Below are positions 52,669-64,000 of a stretch of 64,000 nt of DNA, one piece after another. Where the stretch lies: NCBI RefSeq assembly GCF_001422445.1, contig NZ_LMNA01000010.1, forward strand, positions 1-64,000. The letters are read 5' to 3'. The notes beneath the pieces were generated by a model, which worked only from the letters and a program-made list of their open reading frames with translations, had not been told where the DNA came from and made no database searches. Positions within the stretch are counted from its first letter, which is position 1, and each line of letters starts with the position of its first letter. The stretch comes from Pseudorhodoferax sp. Leaf274 (GTDB taxonomy: Bacteria > Pseudomonadota > Gammaproteobacteria > Burkholderiales > Burkholderiaceae_C). The translations under genes were made by a program, and so were the position numbers.

Positions 52669-52796
52669 GTTCGTGCATGCCCAGCATGCGAAAGCCAGCC
52701 GTCTGCGGGGTGCAGACAGCGGCGCGACGCCGCACGCGCGCATGGCCGCGGCGGCCCGCGTTGCTGTCGCTGCGGGCGGCCCACCGGGAGTCCCGC

Positions 52797-53495
52797 ATGC
52801 ACATCGAACCCGGCGTCGTCGACGGCGCCAAGATCGTCCTGAGCTACGCCACGGCCGCGGCCGCCCTCGGCCTCGCGGCCTGGATGGCGCGCCAGGATGC
52901 GCGCGCCGACGCCCGGCGCGGCGGCTGGCCCGCGCTGCTGGCGCGCAGCGTGCTGACCAGCCTGGCGGTGTTCTGCTTCTTCGAGGTGTTGCCGCACGAG
53001 CCGGTGGGCGTGTCCGAGGTGCACCTGATCCTGGGCTCCACGCTGTTGCTGCTGTTCGGCGCGGGTGCCACCGCCATCGGGCTGGCGGCGGGCCTGCTGG
53101 CCCAGGGCCTGTTCTTCGCGCCGGCCGACCTGCCGCAGTACGGCATGAACGTCACCACGCTGCTGGTGCCGCTGTACGCCATCGCGCAGCTGGCCCGGCG
53201 CATCGTCCCGGCGCGCACGGCCTACGTGGACATCCGCTACCGCCAGGCGTTGGCGCTGTCGCTGGCCTACCAGGGCGGCATCGTGCTGTGGGTGGCGTTC
53301 TGGGCGCTGTACGGGCACGGCGTGGGCGCGGCCACGCTGGCCGAGGTCGGCCGCTTCGGCCTCGCCTACATGGGCGTGGTGCTGCTGGAGCCGCTGATCG
53401 ACCTGGGCGCGCTGTGGGTGGCCAAGACGCTTTGCGGCCTCACGCGCGGCCGCCTGTTCACGGCGCGGCTGCACGCGGCCGCCACGCCGGCCTGA
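52797..53495 (+). CDS. cbiM: CbiM-like ECF transporter membrane protein (cobalt/cobalamin)
   Basis: A 232-residue membrane protein with 6-7 helices. The N-terminus MHIEPGVVDGAK matches the metal-binding start of CbiM (M-H-I-x-x-G), where His2 coordinates Co2+. GGGAG lies 6 nt before the ATG. It is directly downstream of a cobalamin riboswitch and 2 nt before a BtuF-like gene. In complete systems CbiM works with CbiN, CbiQ and CbiO; none lies in this window. It may take up cobalt for B12 synthesis or act with partners encoded elsewhere. Confidence 0.87.
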   Translation: MHIEPGVVDGAKIVLSYATAAAALGLAAWMARQDARADARRGGWPALLARSVLTSLAVFCFFEVLPHEPVGVSEVHLILGSTLLLLFGAGATAIGLAAGLLAQGLFFAPADLPQYGMNVTTLLVPLYAIAQLARRIVPARTAYVDIRYRQALALSLAYQGGIVLWVAFWALYGHGVGAATLAEVGRFGLAYMGVVLLEPLIDLGALWVAKTLCGLTRGRLFTARLHAAATPA

Positions 53496-53497
53496 CC

Positions 53498-54559
53498 GTG
53501 CTCGCGCGCCCGCCGGCCGCCCTGCTGATCGCGCTGCTGTTCCAGGGCGGCCCGGGCGCCGTTCCGGCCTTCGCGGCGCCCGCTGCCGACCTGCCACCGC
53601 GCCCCGCCAGGGCCGCACCGGCCACGGCCTGGCGCATCGTCTCGCTGCAGCCCTCGCTGACCGAGACGGTCTGCGCGCTCGACGCCTGCGACCGCCTGGT
53701 CGCCATCGACCGCTACTCCGACTGGCCGCCGAGCGTGCAGCCGCTGCCGCGCGTGGGCGGTCTGGCCGATGCCGACATCGAGCGCATCCTCGCGGCCCGG
53801 CCCGACCTCGTGCTGCTGCGCCCGCGCAACCGCGTGGCCGAGCGGCTGCGCGAGCTGGGCCTGAACGTGCTGACGCTGGACGGCAAGTCCCACGCCGACA
53901 TGCGCCGCAACATGGAGACCGTGGCCCAGGCCATCGGCCAGCCCGGCGCGGGCGAGGCGCTGTGGGCGCGCACCGACGCCCGCCTGGACGCGCTGCGCCA
54001 GCGGCTGCCGCCGCACTGGCAGGGCAAGCGGGTGTACTTCGAGCTGCACGGCGGCGTGGTCGCGGCCGGCGAGGCCTCGTTCATCGGCGAGACCTTGGCC
54101 CGCCTGGGCCTGCGCAACGTGGTGCCGGCCAGCCTGGGCGCGTTCCCCAAGCTGGGGCCGGAGTACGTGCTGCGCGCCGACCCCGACCTGCTGATCGTGC
54201 ACGACATGCCCGGCGCGCCGCCGCTGGAGGCCCGGCCGGGCTGGCATGCGATGCGGGCCGTGCGCGAGGGCCGGTATTGCCGGATCGCCGAGCCGCGCTT
54301 CGACGTGCTGGTGCGGCCGGGGCCGCGCATCGACGAGGCCGCGCAGGAGGTGCTGGCCTGCCTGGCGGCGGTGGACCGGCGCGTGGCGACCCCGTCACCG
54401 AACTCGTGCAGCGCGGCCGCGCACTCGACCCACAGGACCGCGAACGCCTGGTGGACCAGTTGCTGGAGTCGCTCAACGAACCTGCGGCCGCGCAACTGGA
54501 CGCGGCGTGGGAGGCCGAGATCGGGCGGCGCCTTGCCGAGTACGACCGCGGCGAAGTGA
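53498..54559 (+). CDS. btuF: BtuF-like periplasmic cobalamin-binding protein with a foreign C-terminal tail
   Basis: A 353-residue frame. The signal peptide is ~residues 1-27. The class III binding-protein domain has RIVSLQPSLTETVCALDACDRLVAIDRYSDWP, GGLADADIERILAARPDLVL and LGPEYVLRADPDLLIVHDMP. It fits BtuF or an adjacent cobalamin-binding protein. The start is GTG 53498, 2 nt after the cbiM stop. Homology ends near residue 296 (VDRRV, base 54387). After that the frame runs through an inserted toxin-antitoxin gene and adds ~57 residues of Arg/Ser/Trp-rich sequence without family sense. The native stop has been lost. Confidence 0.82.
   Translation: MLARPPAALLIALLFQGGPGAVPAFAAPAADLPPRPARAAPATAWRIVSLQPSLTETVCALDACDRLVAIDRYSDWPPSVQPLPRVGGLADADIERILAARPDLVLLRPRNRVAERLRELGLNVLTLDGKSHADMRRNMETVAQAIGQPGAGEALWARTDARLDALRQRLPPHWQGKRVYFELHGGVVAAGEASFIGETLARLGLRNVVPASLGAFPKLGPEYVLRADPDLLIVHDMPGAPPLEARPGWHAMRAVREGRYCRIAEPRFDVLVRPGPRIDEAAQEVLACLAAVDRRVATPSPNSCSAAAHSTHRTANAWWTSCWSRSTNLRPRNWTRRGRPRSGGALPSTTAAK
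54220..54387 (+). repeat. Repeat C, copy 1: 3' end of btuF
   Basis: This 168-bp coding segment recurs at 56895-57062 in the same orientation with two mismatches. The shared segment ends exactly at GCGTGGC in both, and beyond it the sequences are unrelated. Base 54387/54388 is therefore a junction. Confidence 0.9.
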
Positions 54560-54905: not shown

Positions 54906-55070
54906 CACCAGCGCGCGGCTTCCTGGTGCTTCAGGCGGATGCGGACCGTCTTTAAGGCAGCGTTCAGCACGTCGCTCGGAACAGCCGAACCGCTGTGAGC
55001 TTGCGCTCATCCGCGAGCCCATCCACGGTCTATGCAGCCCCATTGCCCCCGGGCCCTTGAGCCTGACGTC

Positions 55071-55136
55071 GACCTGCAAATCGTGCACGACATGCCCGGC
55101 GCGCCACCGGTGAAGGCACGGCCCGGCTGGCATTCG
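55071..55136 (+). repeat. Degenerate btuF fragment
   Basis: GACCTGCAAATCGTGCACGACATGCCCGGCGCGCC and following bases up to GGCTGGCATTCG resemble btuF 54188-54250 at ~85% identity, with several changes. It lies alone before the nuclease-like gene. The rest of the gap (54906-55181, 276 bp) holds no gene I can support. Confidence 0.75.
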
Positions 55137-56546: not shown

Positions 56547-57704
56547 TTAGGTATCGCGCGCCCCCAGCCTGCGCCAGGGTTCGCGCACTCGCCGGCCGCA
56601 GTCTTCCCTGTCGAGGTCGATCACGCTCGCCTGCACAGCATCAGGCGGGCGGTCCTGCCAATCTGGCGCACGCCTATCGGTCAACAGCCATAGCCAGCCT
56701 CGCCGCTCGGTCCGGCGGCCGAAGGTAGCAACAGCTGCGCCTGCGCGATGGCCGGCCCCCGCGGCGTGCCGCCGCCCGCGCCGATCGGGCGATCCATTCG
56801 TCGTTCCACGCGCCGCCTTGCGCGGCGGCCGGCGCAGATTCACGCGCGTGCGGGCGAAGCAAAGTAGCGCCATACGCTCCATGTCTGGTGCCCCGCCGCT
56901 GGAGGCCCGGCCGGGCTGGCACGCGATGCGGGCCGTGCGCGAGGGCCGGTATTGCCGGATCGCTGAGCCGCGCTTCGACGTGCTGGTGCGGCCGGGGCCG
57001 CGCATCGACGAGGCCGCGCAGGAGGTGCTGGCCTGCCTGGCGGCGGTGGACCGGCGCGTGGCCAGCACGCCCAGGCCCAGCAGCAGCAGGGACGCCATGC
57101 CCGGCTCGGGCACCTCGCCCACCGCCGGCGCTTCGAGCACGAAGGCCAGGTTGTCGGCATAGCCGTCGTTGTCGCCGCCGCCGATGCGCTCCATCGACAG
57201 CCAGAAGGCCAGCTGGCTGGTGCCGGCCGGCAGCAGGCCCTCGGCCTCGCGGTAGAACAGGCCGGTCTGGTTGTTGCGGTCCGCGGGCAGCACCGGGCCG
57301 ATGGCGGCGCCGCCGATCTCGGTGCCGAAGCCGTCGAGGAACTGCACGTAGAACAGCGCGTTGTCGCCCTGGCTGCTCCAGCCGCCGAGCCAGCCGCTCA
57401 GCGAGAAGGCGATGGACCCGGTCGTCGCCATGCCGAAGTCCAGCGTCTGGTAGCCGACGGCGTAGGCGCCCGTGCCCGTGAACATCCTGGCGCCGCGGTC
57501 GGTCGGGCCCGGCTGCGTGGGCAGCACCCAGTTGCTGCCGTAGTTGACCGACTGGATCGGGCTGTAGCTGGAGTAGCCGGTCCAGCCGGTGACGCCGGCC
57601 TCGGCGTTGCCGTTGACGACCAGGTTGCTGCCGTACACGACGGCGGCCTGGCTGCTGCAGGCCACGGCGAGCAGCGCCGTGGCGATGAGGTGTCGAAATT
57701 GCAT
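56547..57704 (-). CDS. PEP-CTERM secreted protein with run-on C-terminus
   Basis: A 385-residue frame whose real protein is ~residues 1-215. The signal peptide is 1-20 (ending SSQA). A central beta-rich domain has LVVNGNAEAGVTGWTGYSS, and a C-terminal VPEPGMASLLLLGLGVLATRR is a classic PEP-CTERM sorting signal (motif, helix, Arg cluster). After the Arg pair, the frame reads antisense through the btuF copy and then a decayed chlD fragment, to a stop at 56547. The native stop was lost at the 57062/57063 junction. Such proteins are processed by exosortase, which I do not see here. The added tail would follow the sorting helix and probably harm sorting. Confidence 0.75.
   Translation of the reverse strand: MQFRHLIATALLAVACSSQAAVVYGSNLVVNGNAEAGVTGWTGYSSYSPIQSVNYGSNWVLPTQPGPTDRGARMFTGTGAYAVGYQTLDFGMATTGSIAFSLSGWLGGWSSQGDNALFYVQFLDGFGTEIGGAAIGPVLPADRNNQTGLFYREAEGLLPAGTSQLAFWLSMERIGGGDNDGYADNLAFVLEAPAVGEVPEPGMASLLLLGLGVLATRRSTAARQASTSCAASSMRGPGRTSTSKRGSAIRQYRPSRTARIACQPGRASSGGAPDMERMALLCFARTRVNLRRPPRKAARGTTNGSPDRRGRRHAAGAGHRAGAAVATFGRRTERRGWLWLLTDRRAPDWQDRPPDAVQASVIDLDREDCGRRVREPWRRLGARDT
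56550..56880 (-). pseudogene. Decayed copy of the chlD (VWA) 3' end
   Basis: On the minus strand this segment aligns with the 3' ~330 bases of the VWA gene at 60125-60490, with about 75-80% identity and frame breaks. Recognisable pieces are [21 protein letters not shown] and ASVIDLDRED, matching [21 protein letters not shown] and [10 protein letters not shown]. No start or intact domain is left. It directly abuts the btuF copy at ~56881. Confidence 0.8.
56895..57062 (+). repeat. Repeat C, copy 2: orphan btuF 3' fragment
   Basis: This segment is identical to 54220-54387 except for two substitutions (56921 region and the CGCTGAG/CGCCGAG site). It is an orphan fragment without its 5' part. Its right end joins the PEP-CTERM gene 3' end. 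The high identity implies recent duplication or gene conversion. Confidence 0.9.
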
Positions 57705-60124: not shown

Positions 60125-61884
60125 TCAGGCCCAGTCCCCGGGCCGCAGGCAGTCCACGCCCCAGGCCAGCGCCAGCGCCTGCGCGCGCCCCAGCCGCACG
60201 CGGCCCTGCTCGAAGTCGATCACACGCGCCTGCGCGGCCTCGCGCGGGCGGTCGGGCCGGTCGCGCGCACGTCCATCGGTCAGCAGCCACAGCCAGCCCT
60301 CGCCGCCCGGCCCGGCGGCCGAGGCCAGCAGCTGCGCCGCCTGCGCGATGGCCGGGCCCAGCGGCGTGCCGCCGCCCGCGCCGATGGGGGCGATCCAGTC
60401 GTCGTTCCATGCCGCCGCCTTGCGTGGTGGCAGGCGCAGCTCCACGCGGGTGCCGGCAAAGCACAGCAGCGCCACGCGCTCGCGCCGGCGGTAGGCCTGC
60501 TCCATGAGCGCGAGCAGCACACCCTTGGCCCGCGCGAGCGCGCCGCCCGTGGCCATGGAGCCCGAGCAGTCGAGCACGAAGCAGTGCAGCCGCTGGCCGG
60601 ACGGCGGCTGCGGGCGGCGCCGCAGGTGTTGCGCCGCGAGCGTTGCGGCGCCGCGCGCGGCCAGCGTGCCGGGCCAGTCCCACCCGCCCGTGGCGGGGCT
60701 GCGCTGCGGCTGGCTGGCCAGCCGTGCCTCCGCACCGGTGGCGCGCCCGGCCGCATGGCCTGGCGCGGGATCGGCGCGGAGGCTCAGGCTTTTTTTGCGG
60801 CGGCCTTCGCGCTGGCGGACAGCAGTTCCGGCACGGCCAGGCGCACGGTGCCGGTGGGCTCGGGCGGCATGGCGCCCCAGTCCGATGCGCCAGCGGCTTC
60901 GGGCGGGGTGGCCCCGTCGGCAGGCGGTGGCCGGTCCGCCGTGGACGGGCCGGCGGGCGATGCGGCGGGCGGCACGGCCGGTTCCGGCGCGGGCGCCGGC
61001 GGCGGCACGCCGGGCTTGCGCCGGTGCACGAGCGCCAGCTCGGCCACGGCCTGCACGTGCGCGGGCGTGACCGCGTCGTCGCCTTGCCAGGCGGCCCAGG
61101 CGCGGGCCGCGCGCAGCAGCACGAGATCGGCCCGCAGCCCATCGACCTGCGCCTGCACGCACAGCGCGCCCGCGGCCTGCAGCACGGCGTCGGACCAGGG
61201 CAACGCGTCGGGCGCCTGCACGCGCGTGCGGGCCGCGCCCAGGCGCTGCGCCAGCGCGGCCTGCGGCGAGGCATGCTGCGCGCGGAAGGCGGCCGGGTCG
61301 GCCTCGAACTGCAGCCGCGCGCGCACCGCGGCCTGGCGTTCGGCCGGCTCGCGCAGGTTGCCGAGCCGCACGCACAGCCCCAGCCGGTCGAGCAGCTGCG
61401 GGCGCAGCGCACCCTCCTCCGGGTTCATGGTGCCCACGAGCACGAAGCGTGCGGCGTGGCGGTGCGAGATGCCGTCGCGCTCGACCACGTTGACGCCGCT
61501 GGCCGCGGCATCGAGCAGCACGTCGACCAGCGCGTCGGGCAGCAGGTTGATCTCGTCCACATAGAGCACGCCGCCGTGCGCGCGCGCCAGCAGGCCGGGC
61601 GCGAACCGCACTGTGTGCCCGGCCAGGGCCTGTTGCAGGTCCAGTGTGCCGGCCACATGCTCGAGCGAGGCGCCCAGCGGCAGCGTGACGAAGGGCGCGC
61701 CCGCCAGCAGTTCGGCCAGCGCACGCGCCGCGGTGGACTTGGCCGTGCCGCGCGGCCCTTCGACCAGCACGCCGCCGATGCGCGGGTCGATCGCGGCCAG
61801 CAGCAGCGCCTGGCACAGCGCGGGCTGCCCGGCGATGGCGGCAAAGGGAAACAACGGCGGCAGTTCGGTCTCGGACAGGTTCAT
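60125..61884 (-). CDS. chlD: ChlI-VWA fusion product (ChlD-like subunit) made by -1 frameshift
   Basis: Two frames are joined at an A7 tract. Reading starts at ATG 61884, covers 365 codons to 60790, slips back one base and continues for 221 residues to 60125 (586 residues in all). The first part is the AAA+ chelatase domain. A Pro/Ala linker (~residues 280-350) follows, and the VWA domain (~435-580) has the metal site DCSGSM and LLTDGRA. This order (AAA, linker, VWA) is that of ChlD/BchD. The VWA frame has no ATG, GTG or TTG before the DCSGSM region, so separate translation is unlikely. With cobN adjacent, the complex should be an aerobic cobaltochelatase for B12 synthesis. Confidence 0.75.
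60726..60796 (-). promoter_or_regulatory. Programmed -1 frameshift signal in chlI/chlD
   Basis: In mRNA sense: AAGG lies 7 nt before the slippery heptamer A-AAA-AAA (60796-60790), followed by G. The zero-frame stop TGA is the second codon after it (60786-60784). After a 6-nt spacer a stem begins: GCCTCCGCGCCG (60783-60772) pairs with CGGTGCGGAGGC (60737-60726), 12 pairs with one G-U. The loop contains nested CGCGCC/GGCGCG and GGCC/GGCC helices. All classic parts of a bacterial -1 site are present. Confidence 0.75.
60784..61884 (-). CDS. chlI: AAA+ chelatase subunit (ChlI/BchI-like)
   Basis: A 366-residue zero-frame product. Walker A is GPRGTAKST (residues 43-51), Walker B with [10 protein letters not shown] follows, and the magnesium-chelatase signature [17 protein letters not shown], with sensor Arg, is intact. 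A C-terminal Pro/Ala-rich region ends [14 protein letters not shown]. It is the ATPase motor of the chelatase. GGAGGGAGGGCG lies directly before ATG 61884, which overlaps the cobN stop (ATGA). The stop lies just after the A7 tract, where frameshifting would yield the ChlD form. Confidence 0.9.
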
Positions 61885-64000
61885 CGCCCTCCCTCCATCA
61901 GGTTCTCGTGGTCCAACAGCAGATCTTCGAGCTGCTGGCGGTAGTCGCCGGGCTGCTCCCACAGGCCGCGCTGCATCGCCTCCAGCAGGCGCTCCAGCAT
62001 GCCGCGCAGGGCCGCGGGGTTGTGTTCGGCCACGAATTCGCGCACCGCAGCGTCGCGCACGTAGGCGTCGGCCACCAGCGCGTAGTGGTGGTCGGCCACC
62101 TGGCCCGTGGTGGCGTCGAAGCCGAACAGATAGTCCACCGTGGCCGCCATCTCGAACGCGCCCTTGTAGCCGTGGCGCATGGCGCCCGCGATCCACTTGG
62201 GGTTGGTGACGCGCGCGCGCACCACGCGGCCGATCTCCTGGTGCAGCGTGCGCACGCGCGGCTGCTGCGGGTTGGCGTGGTCGCCGTGGTAGAGCGCGGG
62301 CGTCCTGCCCGAGACCTCGCGCACGGCCGCGGCCATGCCGCCCTGGAATTGCAGGTAGTCGGACGAGTCGAGGATGTCGTGCTCGCGGCTGTCCTGGTTC
62401 TGCGCCACGATGTCGAGCGCGCCCAGGCGGCGGCGCAGCGCGCCTGCGGCCGGCTCGCCCTCGCTGTCCTGCCCGTAGGCGTGGGCGCTCCAGCCGATCC
62501 AGGCGCGGGCCAGGTCGCCGGCGTCCTGCCAGTCGCCGCTATGCAAGAGCGGGTCCATGCCCGTGCCGTAGTGGCCGGGCGGCGCGCCGAACACGCGCCA
62601 GCCGGCCTGGCGGCGGGCCTGCTCGGCCGTGGCGCCAGCGTCCTGCAAGGCCTGGGCTTCGGCCAGGATGCGCGCGCGGATCGGGTTGTCTTCGGCGTCT
62701 TCCTCCAGCGCGGCCACGGCCTGCACGGCGGCGTCGAACATCTGCACCGCGAGCGGAAACGCGTCGCGGAAGAAGCCGGAGATGCGCAGCGTCACGTCCA
62801 CGCGCGGGCGGTGCAGGCCGGCGCGCGGCACCACCTCGAAATCCTGCACGCGCTGGCTGCCGGGCGCCCAGCGCGGGCGCACGCCGATGAGGGCGAAGGC
62901 CTGGGCGATGTCGTCGCCGCCCGTGCGCATGGTGGCCGTGCCCCAGACCGACAGGCCCAGCGTGCGCGGGTACTCGCCATGCTCCTGCAGGTAGCGCTCC
63001 AGCAACTGGCGCGTGGCGAGCTGGCCCAGTTCCCAGGCGGCCTGGGTCGGGATGGCGCGCGTGTCCAGCGTGTAGAAGTTGCGGCCCGTGGGCAGCACGT
63101 CGGGCCGGCCACGCGAGGGCGAGCCGCTGGGGCCGGCCGGCACGAACAGGCCGCGCAGGCCGCGCATGAGCTGGCGCAGTTCCTCGCCACCGCAGGCGTC
63201 CAGCGCCGGGGCCAGTTGGTCGCGCACGCGCTGCAGCACGGCCTGGGTCTGCGGCCAGTCGGCGGCCTGCGCCGCGCCGTCCAGCAGTTGCTGGGCGATC
63301 AGCTCCAGGCGTTCGCGCGTGTCGCCTTCGTGGCGCCAGGGCTCGGTGCCCAGGGCCTGCAGCACGGCGGGGCGCGGGCCGGTCCAGGGCCGGGCCGCCT
63401 CCAGGCGCAGCGGGTCGAAGCCCGTGCCCGGCAGCAGGTCGGCCGCCAGCGCGGCCAGCAGGCCGGCGTCGGCGCCCTGCCCGCTGCCGTAGGGGAAGCG
63501 CGCGAGCGCCAGCAGCGTGTCCCTGCGCTGGCGGCCTGCGGGCGAGCGGCCGAAGACATGCAGCCCGTCGCGGATCTGCGTCTCCTTGAGCTCGCAGAGG
63601 TAGGCGTCGATGCGTTCGAGCAGCGCGTCCTCGTCCTGCGCTGCGCCGGGCGGCAGATCCAGCTCGCCGGCCAGGTGCTGGCGGCGCACGGCCTCCACGA
63701 TCTGGCGGCGCAGCAGCGCGGCGCGGCGCGCGTCGACGAGCAGTGCGTCGTAGTACTCGTCGACCAGGCGTTCCAGGTCCTGCAGCGGGCCGTGGTTCTC
63801 GGCGCGCGTGAGCGGCGGCATCAGGTGGTCGACGATCACGGCCTGGCTGCGGCGCTTGGCCTGCGCGCCCTCGCCGGGGTCGTTGACGATGAAGGGGTAC
63901 AGGTGCGGCAGCGGGCCGAGGATGGCGTCGGGCCAGCACGCGGCGGACAGCGCCAGGCTCTTGCCTGGCAGCCATTCGAGGTTGCCGTGCTTGCCCACGT
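61881..64000 (-). CDS. cobN: Cobaltochelatase large subunit CobN, C-terminal part
   Basis: The 3' ~706 codons of a gene that continues beyond the right edge (full CobN is usually ~1250 residues or more). Landmarks are [58 protein letters not shown], the ARPWTGPRP segment and the C-terminal [20 protein letters not shown]. CobN binds hydrogenobyrinate a,c-diamide and inserts Co2+ with the ATPase subunits. Its stop overlaps the chlI start, so chelatase subunits are translationally coupled. Found with the B12 riboswitch, cbiM and btuF, it defines a cobalamin locus. Confidence 0.93.

Follow-up and report, generated by a model that had tools for sequence, protein, structure and literature searches.

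A probable programmed −1 frameshift in a chlID gene beside cobN in Pseudorhodoferax sp. Leaf274

We examined the first 64,000 nucleotides of contig 10 (NZ_LMNA01000010.1) of the Pseudorhodoferax sp. Leaf274 assembly, referred to here as the window. Near its end, a chlI frame follows cobN and runs into a VWA module that lies in a different frame (Table 1). The CobN profile match extends over G000:C10:61947-65252, and the cobN stop codon (61883-61881) and the chlI ATG (61884) overlap as ATGA. NCBIfam model TIGR02442 (putative cobaltochelatase) is the best model for both the chlI part and the VWA part, each of which alone scores under the whole-protein cut-off. The DCSGS motif of the VWA module starts at 60571.

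Table 1. Features of the cobN-chlI-VWA locus in window coordinates.
Feature	Position	Strand	Basis
cobN, 3' part	61881..63998	−	TIGR02257 (CobN) above cut-off; gene continues past the window edge
chlI frame, 366 aa, AAA and lid domains, end KKA-TGA	60784..61884	−	Pfam AAA_lid_2, Mg_chelatase
SD-like AAGG, 7 nt upstream of the heptamer	60804..60807	−	Sequence
Slippery heptamer A_AAA_AAA	60790..60796	−	Sequence; conserved in relatives
6-nt spacer GCC TGA, contains the chlI stop	60784..60789	−	Sequence
Predicted downstream hairpin, 12-bp outer stem and nested inner stem	60726..60783	−	Folding; comparison
VWA (ChlD C-terminal) module, −1 frame	60125..60790	−	Pfam VWA_2, VWA; TIGR02442, C-terminal part; selection

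The minus-strand junction reads ...GCC GCA AAA AAA GCC TGA, followed by GCCTCCGCGCCG... A first-pass annotation had proposed that a −1 shift on the heptamer joins the chlI and VWA frames, and both the sequence and the coordinates proved to be as it described. The chlI frame ends just past the heptamer, as it also noted, with one sense codon (GCC) before the TGA (60786-60784). After the shift the VWA frame is open to 60125, which gives a joined product of 586 aa. The AAA/ChlI and VWA parts are in different frames within one locus, as in the frameshifted chlD genes (fs-chlD) described below. The further claim that the VWA frame has no start codon before its metal motif stands for the stretch between the slip site and the motif, where we found only CTG, plus a GTG two codons before DCSGS. 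It does not stand upstream of the slip site, where the VWA frame is open too and contains GTGs at 61162, 61375 and 61816. The 12-bp stem after a 6-nt spacer was borne out: the predicted hairpin is 58 nt long, its outer stem contains one G·U pair, and it folds at −54.2 kcal/mol (z −5.4), with 0 of 200 shuffles equally good.

The VWA query matched 41 of 299 sampled genomes of the same family. The frameshift locus is present in 33 of the 41; the remaining eight carry a BchD gene only, in each case above the cut-off of the BchD model NF009943. With the congeners G003 and G004 added, the set comprised 35 family loci, and the VWA frame is −1 relative to chlI in all 35. The heptamer lies in a run of seven A in 33 loci and eight A in one, and is C_CCA_AAA, also an X_XXY_YYZ heptamer, in the last. 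This locus (L051, in G298) is the only one of the 35 without a long A run; C_CCA_AAA_G stands at the same place, and its hairpin is strong (z −4.0). The stop lies one codon past the heptamer in 33 of the 35 loci; in the other two it lies at +24, and the stem still begins at +6.

Searches outside the family sampled 369 and 398 genomes and gave 24 further sites, 19 with A_AAA_AAG and five with A_AAA_AAA. These sites were chosen for a stop at +3, which is a feature by construction; the stem played no part in the choice. Over all 59 sites the A run is 6 or 7 long in 56, and L104 has 10 A. The A-rich slip site is conserved and in phase with the upstream frame, as in fs-chlD genes. For a set of named relatives, 61 of 80 loci were taken, those with E of 2e-6 or weaker (L213-L231) being left out; the set overlaps the other one in at least four genomes (L152, L155, L168, L205). 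Here, A_AAA_AAR is in phase at 54 of the 58 loci L152-L209 (53 by script, L195 by eye), the exceptions being two loci at contig edges (L179, L208) and two in frame (L157, L207). In one of the latter, from Acidovorax sp. SUPP3334 (L157, 2380-2560), the heptamer is absent and ChlI and VWA share one frame, a natural loss of the frameshift; another Acidovorax (L200) appears to use it. The pattern AAAAAAAGCNTGAGCC was found in 29 of the 299 family genomes and its reversal in none. The frameshift locus accounts for 25 of the 29 matches, and the pattern was rejected as a signature since four (L070, L075, L076, L092) are unrelated.

The register of the stem was scored at the 59 sites by taking the stretch at a given offset after the heptamer and seeking its complement downstream. 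At 56 sites (all but L078, L104 and L128) a stem of 6 bp or more begins at exactly offset 6, compared with 25% when partners were swapped between loci. At offsets 0-5, at most 15 of the 59 sites find a downstream complement. The sites carry 30 different 8-nt arms, the mean run is 8.36 observed vs 4.88 permuted, and 0 of 2000 partner permutations match the observed mean. Because the arms differ while their pairing beats the partner permutations, the stem and its register, and not the sequence, have been maintained. The comparison across related genomes that the first-pass annotation had suggested thus gave a conserved heptamer and a stem held by paired changes at a fixed register, and no conserved independent start for the VWA module was found in the family loci. 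The predicted structure and its conservation also correspond to the stimulatory structure of fs-chlD genes.

The covariation evidence derives from this wider set and not from the five congeners, for which RNAalifold found one pair out of 19 with changes in both partners and a net gain from covariation of effectively zero (+0.16). Folding energies relative to shuffles are uneven over the 35 family loci (mean z −2.0; 16 below −2 and two above 0). Among the 53 scored loci of the named set, 44 reach 6 bp at the register and nine do not. Seven loci (L159, L160, L163, L173, L177, L182, L209) keep the heptamer and the stop with a stem at +6 of just 2-5 bp; they belong to Paraburkholderia, Candidatus Paraburkholderia and Caballeronia, and the other 11 of the 18 named-set loci from these groups differ. 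The pyrimidine share of the 5' arm is 0.68 (positions 3-8, 30 unique arms) vs 0.50 in 7906 same-phase control stretches. A triplex and an effect of cations on the chlD hairpin were raised by Atkins et al. (2016; PMC5009743). A metal-responsive switch, in which cobalt or magnesium would change the hairpin and set the I:D ratio, and which in phototrophs would keep the cobalt motor distinct from the magnesium motor of bchI/bchD, seems to us improbable.

An SD-like tetramer occurs 5-15 nt upstream of the slip site at 20 of the 35 family sites, compared with 9% of 3500 control windows, and its position peaks 10-11 nt upstream. The AAGG of the window is at the position first described, 7 nt upstream, but it is atypical in lying off this peak, where most of the SD-like tetramers of its relatives are found. 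Outside the family, the element was seen at two of four sites in family f184, at none of 15 in f161 (probably Pseudomonas) and at none of five in the rest. All 19 A_AAA_AAG sites are without it and A_AAA_AAA sites often have one; we infer that the SD-like element and A_AAA_AAG might compensate for each other.

Mean dN/dS over five congeners is 0.14 for the ChlI core, 0.42 for the ChlI tail and 0.22 for the VWA domain, and 0.30-0.31 in the VWA frame over the hairpin and linker. The largest share of changes falls at third positions of the −1 frame. These dN/dS values and the third-position excess show that purifying selection acts on the VWA frame and hence that it is translated.

We consider it highly likely that the locus is a single chlID gene read with a programmed −1 ribosomal frameshift. 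A ribosome that stays in the chlI frame would decode AAA AAA GCC, terminate at TGA and so make the small AAA+ subunit I (366 aa). With AAA AAA in the P and A sites, the hairpin would be at the mRNA entry of the ribosome, and in Pseudorhodoferax sp. Leaf274 some fraction of ribosomes would slip back one base, bypass the stop and add the VWA module, which would yield the medium subunit D (586 aa). The two subunits would then assemble as the motor for cobalt insertion by CobN. That the gene beside cobN encodes both small subunits of the enzyme that inserts cobalt for vitamin B12 is very probable, and it is likely that both products are used with CobN. The earlier interpretation, that one gene beside cobN gives the ChlI and ChlD subunits by frameshifting, is supported.

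In transcriptional slippage, RNA polymerase would instead add or drop an A, and a part of the mRNAs would then carry the fusion as a single frame. Ribosomal frameshift sites need a stem at fixed spacing and an SD-like element upstream, and the stem at its 6-nt spacing and the SD-like peak at 10-11 nt suit such a site. The run of seven A here and the ten in L104 are compatible with polymerase slippage, as is the published rise in efficiency with run length in E. coli reporters, from 10% (7 A) to 40% (9 A) and 63% (11 A) (Antonov et al., 2013; PMC3711429). However, the narrow range of run lengths over the 59 sites argues against it, as does L051, which has just four A yet a full ribosomal C_CCA_AAA heptamer. 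We regard transcriptional slippage as quite improbable, and the shift seen in E. coli with homologous cassettes carrying 7 A counts for frameshifting here.

Termination-reinitiation would yield a separate VWA protein from an NTG overlapping the stop (CTGA, ATGA or GTGA). The stop is overlapped by CTG at 60787 in the window, by ATG in L036, L089 and L051 and by GTG in L087, and initiation at downstream genes was seen in some of the 2013 constructs (PMC3711429). Loci that end in TAG (four of 35 in the family, seven of 15 in f161) have CTA there, or GTA in L139, which is no start, yet they keep the heptamer and the stem. In addition, six of the 35 family loci have no ATG, GTG or TTG from the slip site to two codons before the motif. 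We consider reinitiation very improbable. A sequencing error or a broken gene might be suspected at a homopolymer in a draft assembly of 30 contigs, but all 35 family loci, which come from separate genomes, change frame at this position, and this agreement, dN/dS well below 1 and the register of the stem leave no room for either, and together they make an independent start unlikely; we give error or pseudogene almost no credence.

The genomes with a frameshift site were searched with the ChlI core as query (58 of 59, G985 being left out). One strong ChlI match was found in 56 of the 58; judged by position, it is the frameshift gene in 55 genomes, and in G113, where a contig end truncates the frameshift locus, it is the BchI-type gene. 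Two matches were found in each of G000 and G620. That most frameshift genomes have one ChlI match fits one gene making both subunits. In Leaf274 a separate small-subunit gene does exist, bchI in the photosynthesis region, and a second ChlI was not found in the four congeners with a frameshift gene. The lack of a separate small-subunit gene in fs-chlD genomes is a reported trend and not a requirement. The 13 genomes with an in-frame chlID fusion (of 14 non-family single-frame genomes from a window-type query; G418 was left out and the BchD locus L116 not counted) likewise have only one ChlI match at E ≤ 1e-25, so that a separate I product is not obviously obligatory. In these genomes either the fused subunit suffices or a small subunit of another kind was missed. 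The inverse arrangement, a shift that shortens the product of an in-frame fusion, was discarded because the 16 loci examined have no site in common; the A runs of L108 carry no information given its high AT content, and the L113 linker translated with a stop, which leaves its frame uncertain. One in-frame fusion (L127, in G807, about 1473-1490) retains A7-GTC-TGA with the TGA in another frame, so that a product the size of ChlI would result from a +1 shift or from slippage of the polymerase; this would be a vestige or an inverse site.

The C-terminus of CobN lies directly upstream in 49 of the 59 loci. It was not seen in the few hundred bases 5' of chlI that the other ten loci contain (three family loci, one cut by a contig end, and seven of f161). 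In Leaf274, cobN is adjacent to the frameshift gene, as for fs-chlD; both are on contig 10, and BchI, BchD and BchH, each above the cut-off of at least one model, are on contig 30. No CobT match was found in this genome and CobS reached only 25.8 bits vs a cut-off of 558.55, so that homologues of the CobS/CobT cobaltochelatase were not recovered. The genome also holds photosynthetic reaction-centre genes. These phototrophy genes fit the genus despite an assembly contamination rating of 4.34%, because the congener G005 has reaction-centre genes and BchH too. G005 is the only congener without the frameshift gene, and it has no cobN. Congeners G001-G004 carry a cobN-type gene beside the frameshift gene (CobN was typed by profile in G000 and G001 only) and gave no reaction-centre match. 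G620 and G113 combine a frameshift locus with BchD above cut-off and a BchI-type gene; L147, cut at a contig start, was excluded, the profile match there being on the wrong stretch.

Frameshifting in magnesium-chelatase and chlD genes is already known, and the locus described here is a well-supported further case. The suggestion in the first-pass annotation that frameshifting lets chlD-type genes supply two cobaltochelatase subunits has already been published. In the 2013 study of Antonov et al. (PMC3711429), 23 magnesium-chelatase fs-genes are reported from Pseudomonas, Burkholderia, Delftia, Herpetosiphon and two archaeal genera, and Kuznetsov et al. (2022; PMC9227772) summarise a 2020 proposal that one chlD gene gives two cobalt-chelatase subunits, with Pseudomonas aeruginosa as an fs-chlD example. 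The genes in these accounts share with ours the overlapping ChlI/VWA frames, the −1 shift on poly-A, the downstream structure and the provision of two subunits of the CobN enzyme from one gene. Unlike them, the Leaf274 host is a phototroph with its own bchI/bchD/bchH. Because the text and Table 1 of PMC9227772 place fs-chlD only in stages without chlorophyll synthesis, fs-chlD together with chlorophyll genes is absent from its eight stages.

The Pseudomonas chlD hairpin, from the discussion of chlD frameshifting in section 18 of Atkins et al. (2016; PMC5009743), is similar in having A_AAA_AAR and then a stem that begins right after the stop; the f161 sites have A_AAA_AAG and no SD-like element, whereas the Leaf274 family has A_AAA_AAA and often such an element. 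Our stem and register results over 59 sites sharpen the remark there that the structure shows no strong conservation of sequence. The passages on fs-chlD in this literature gave no description of the exact geometry across lineages, the C_CCA_AAA variant, a lineage-dependent SD-like element or fs-chlD in a phototroph with bchI/bchD/bchH.

An automatic pipeline would annotate chlID, a vitamin B12 gene, as two genes or under a wrong name. The order of heptamer, one codon, stop and stem provides a rule for finding such genes. The dnaX −1 frameshift has a similar three-part signal and shortens its product, whereas the shift in chlID lengthens it. PMC3711429 describes a signal built from the same components, an SD-like element, an A-rich slip site and a hairpin. 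In a phototroph, cobalt and magnesium chelatase motors of different gene design coexist, which makes their exchangeability testable.

Near cobN, the plus strand at 52677-54430 holds a stretch with weak similarity to CbiM (E 6e-4, well short of the cut-off) and a BtuF-like binding protein that scores above the TroA_like cut-off, which suggests a cobalt/B12 uptake and synthesis cluster. At 56559-57062 lies a scar in which a degenerate VWA 3' copy (56559-56879, 81% to 60157-60481) runs straight into a copy of the 3' part of the BtuF-like gene (56880-57062, 97% to 54205-54387); 55070-55136 holds another copy, 67 bp long (88% to 54184-54250).
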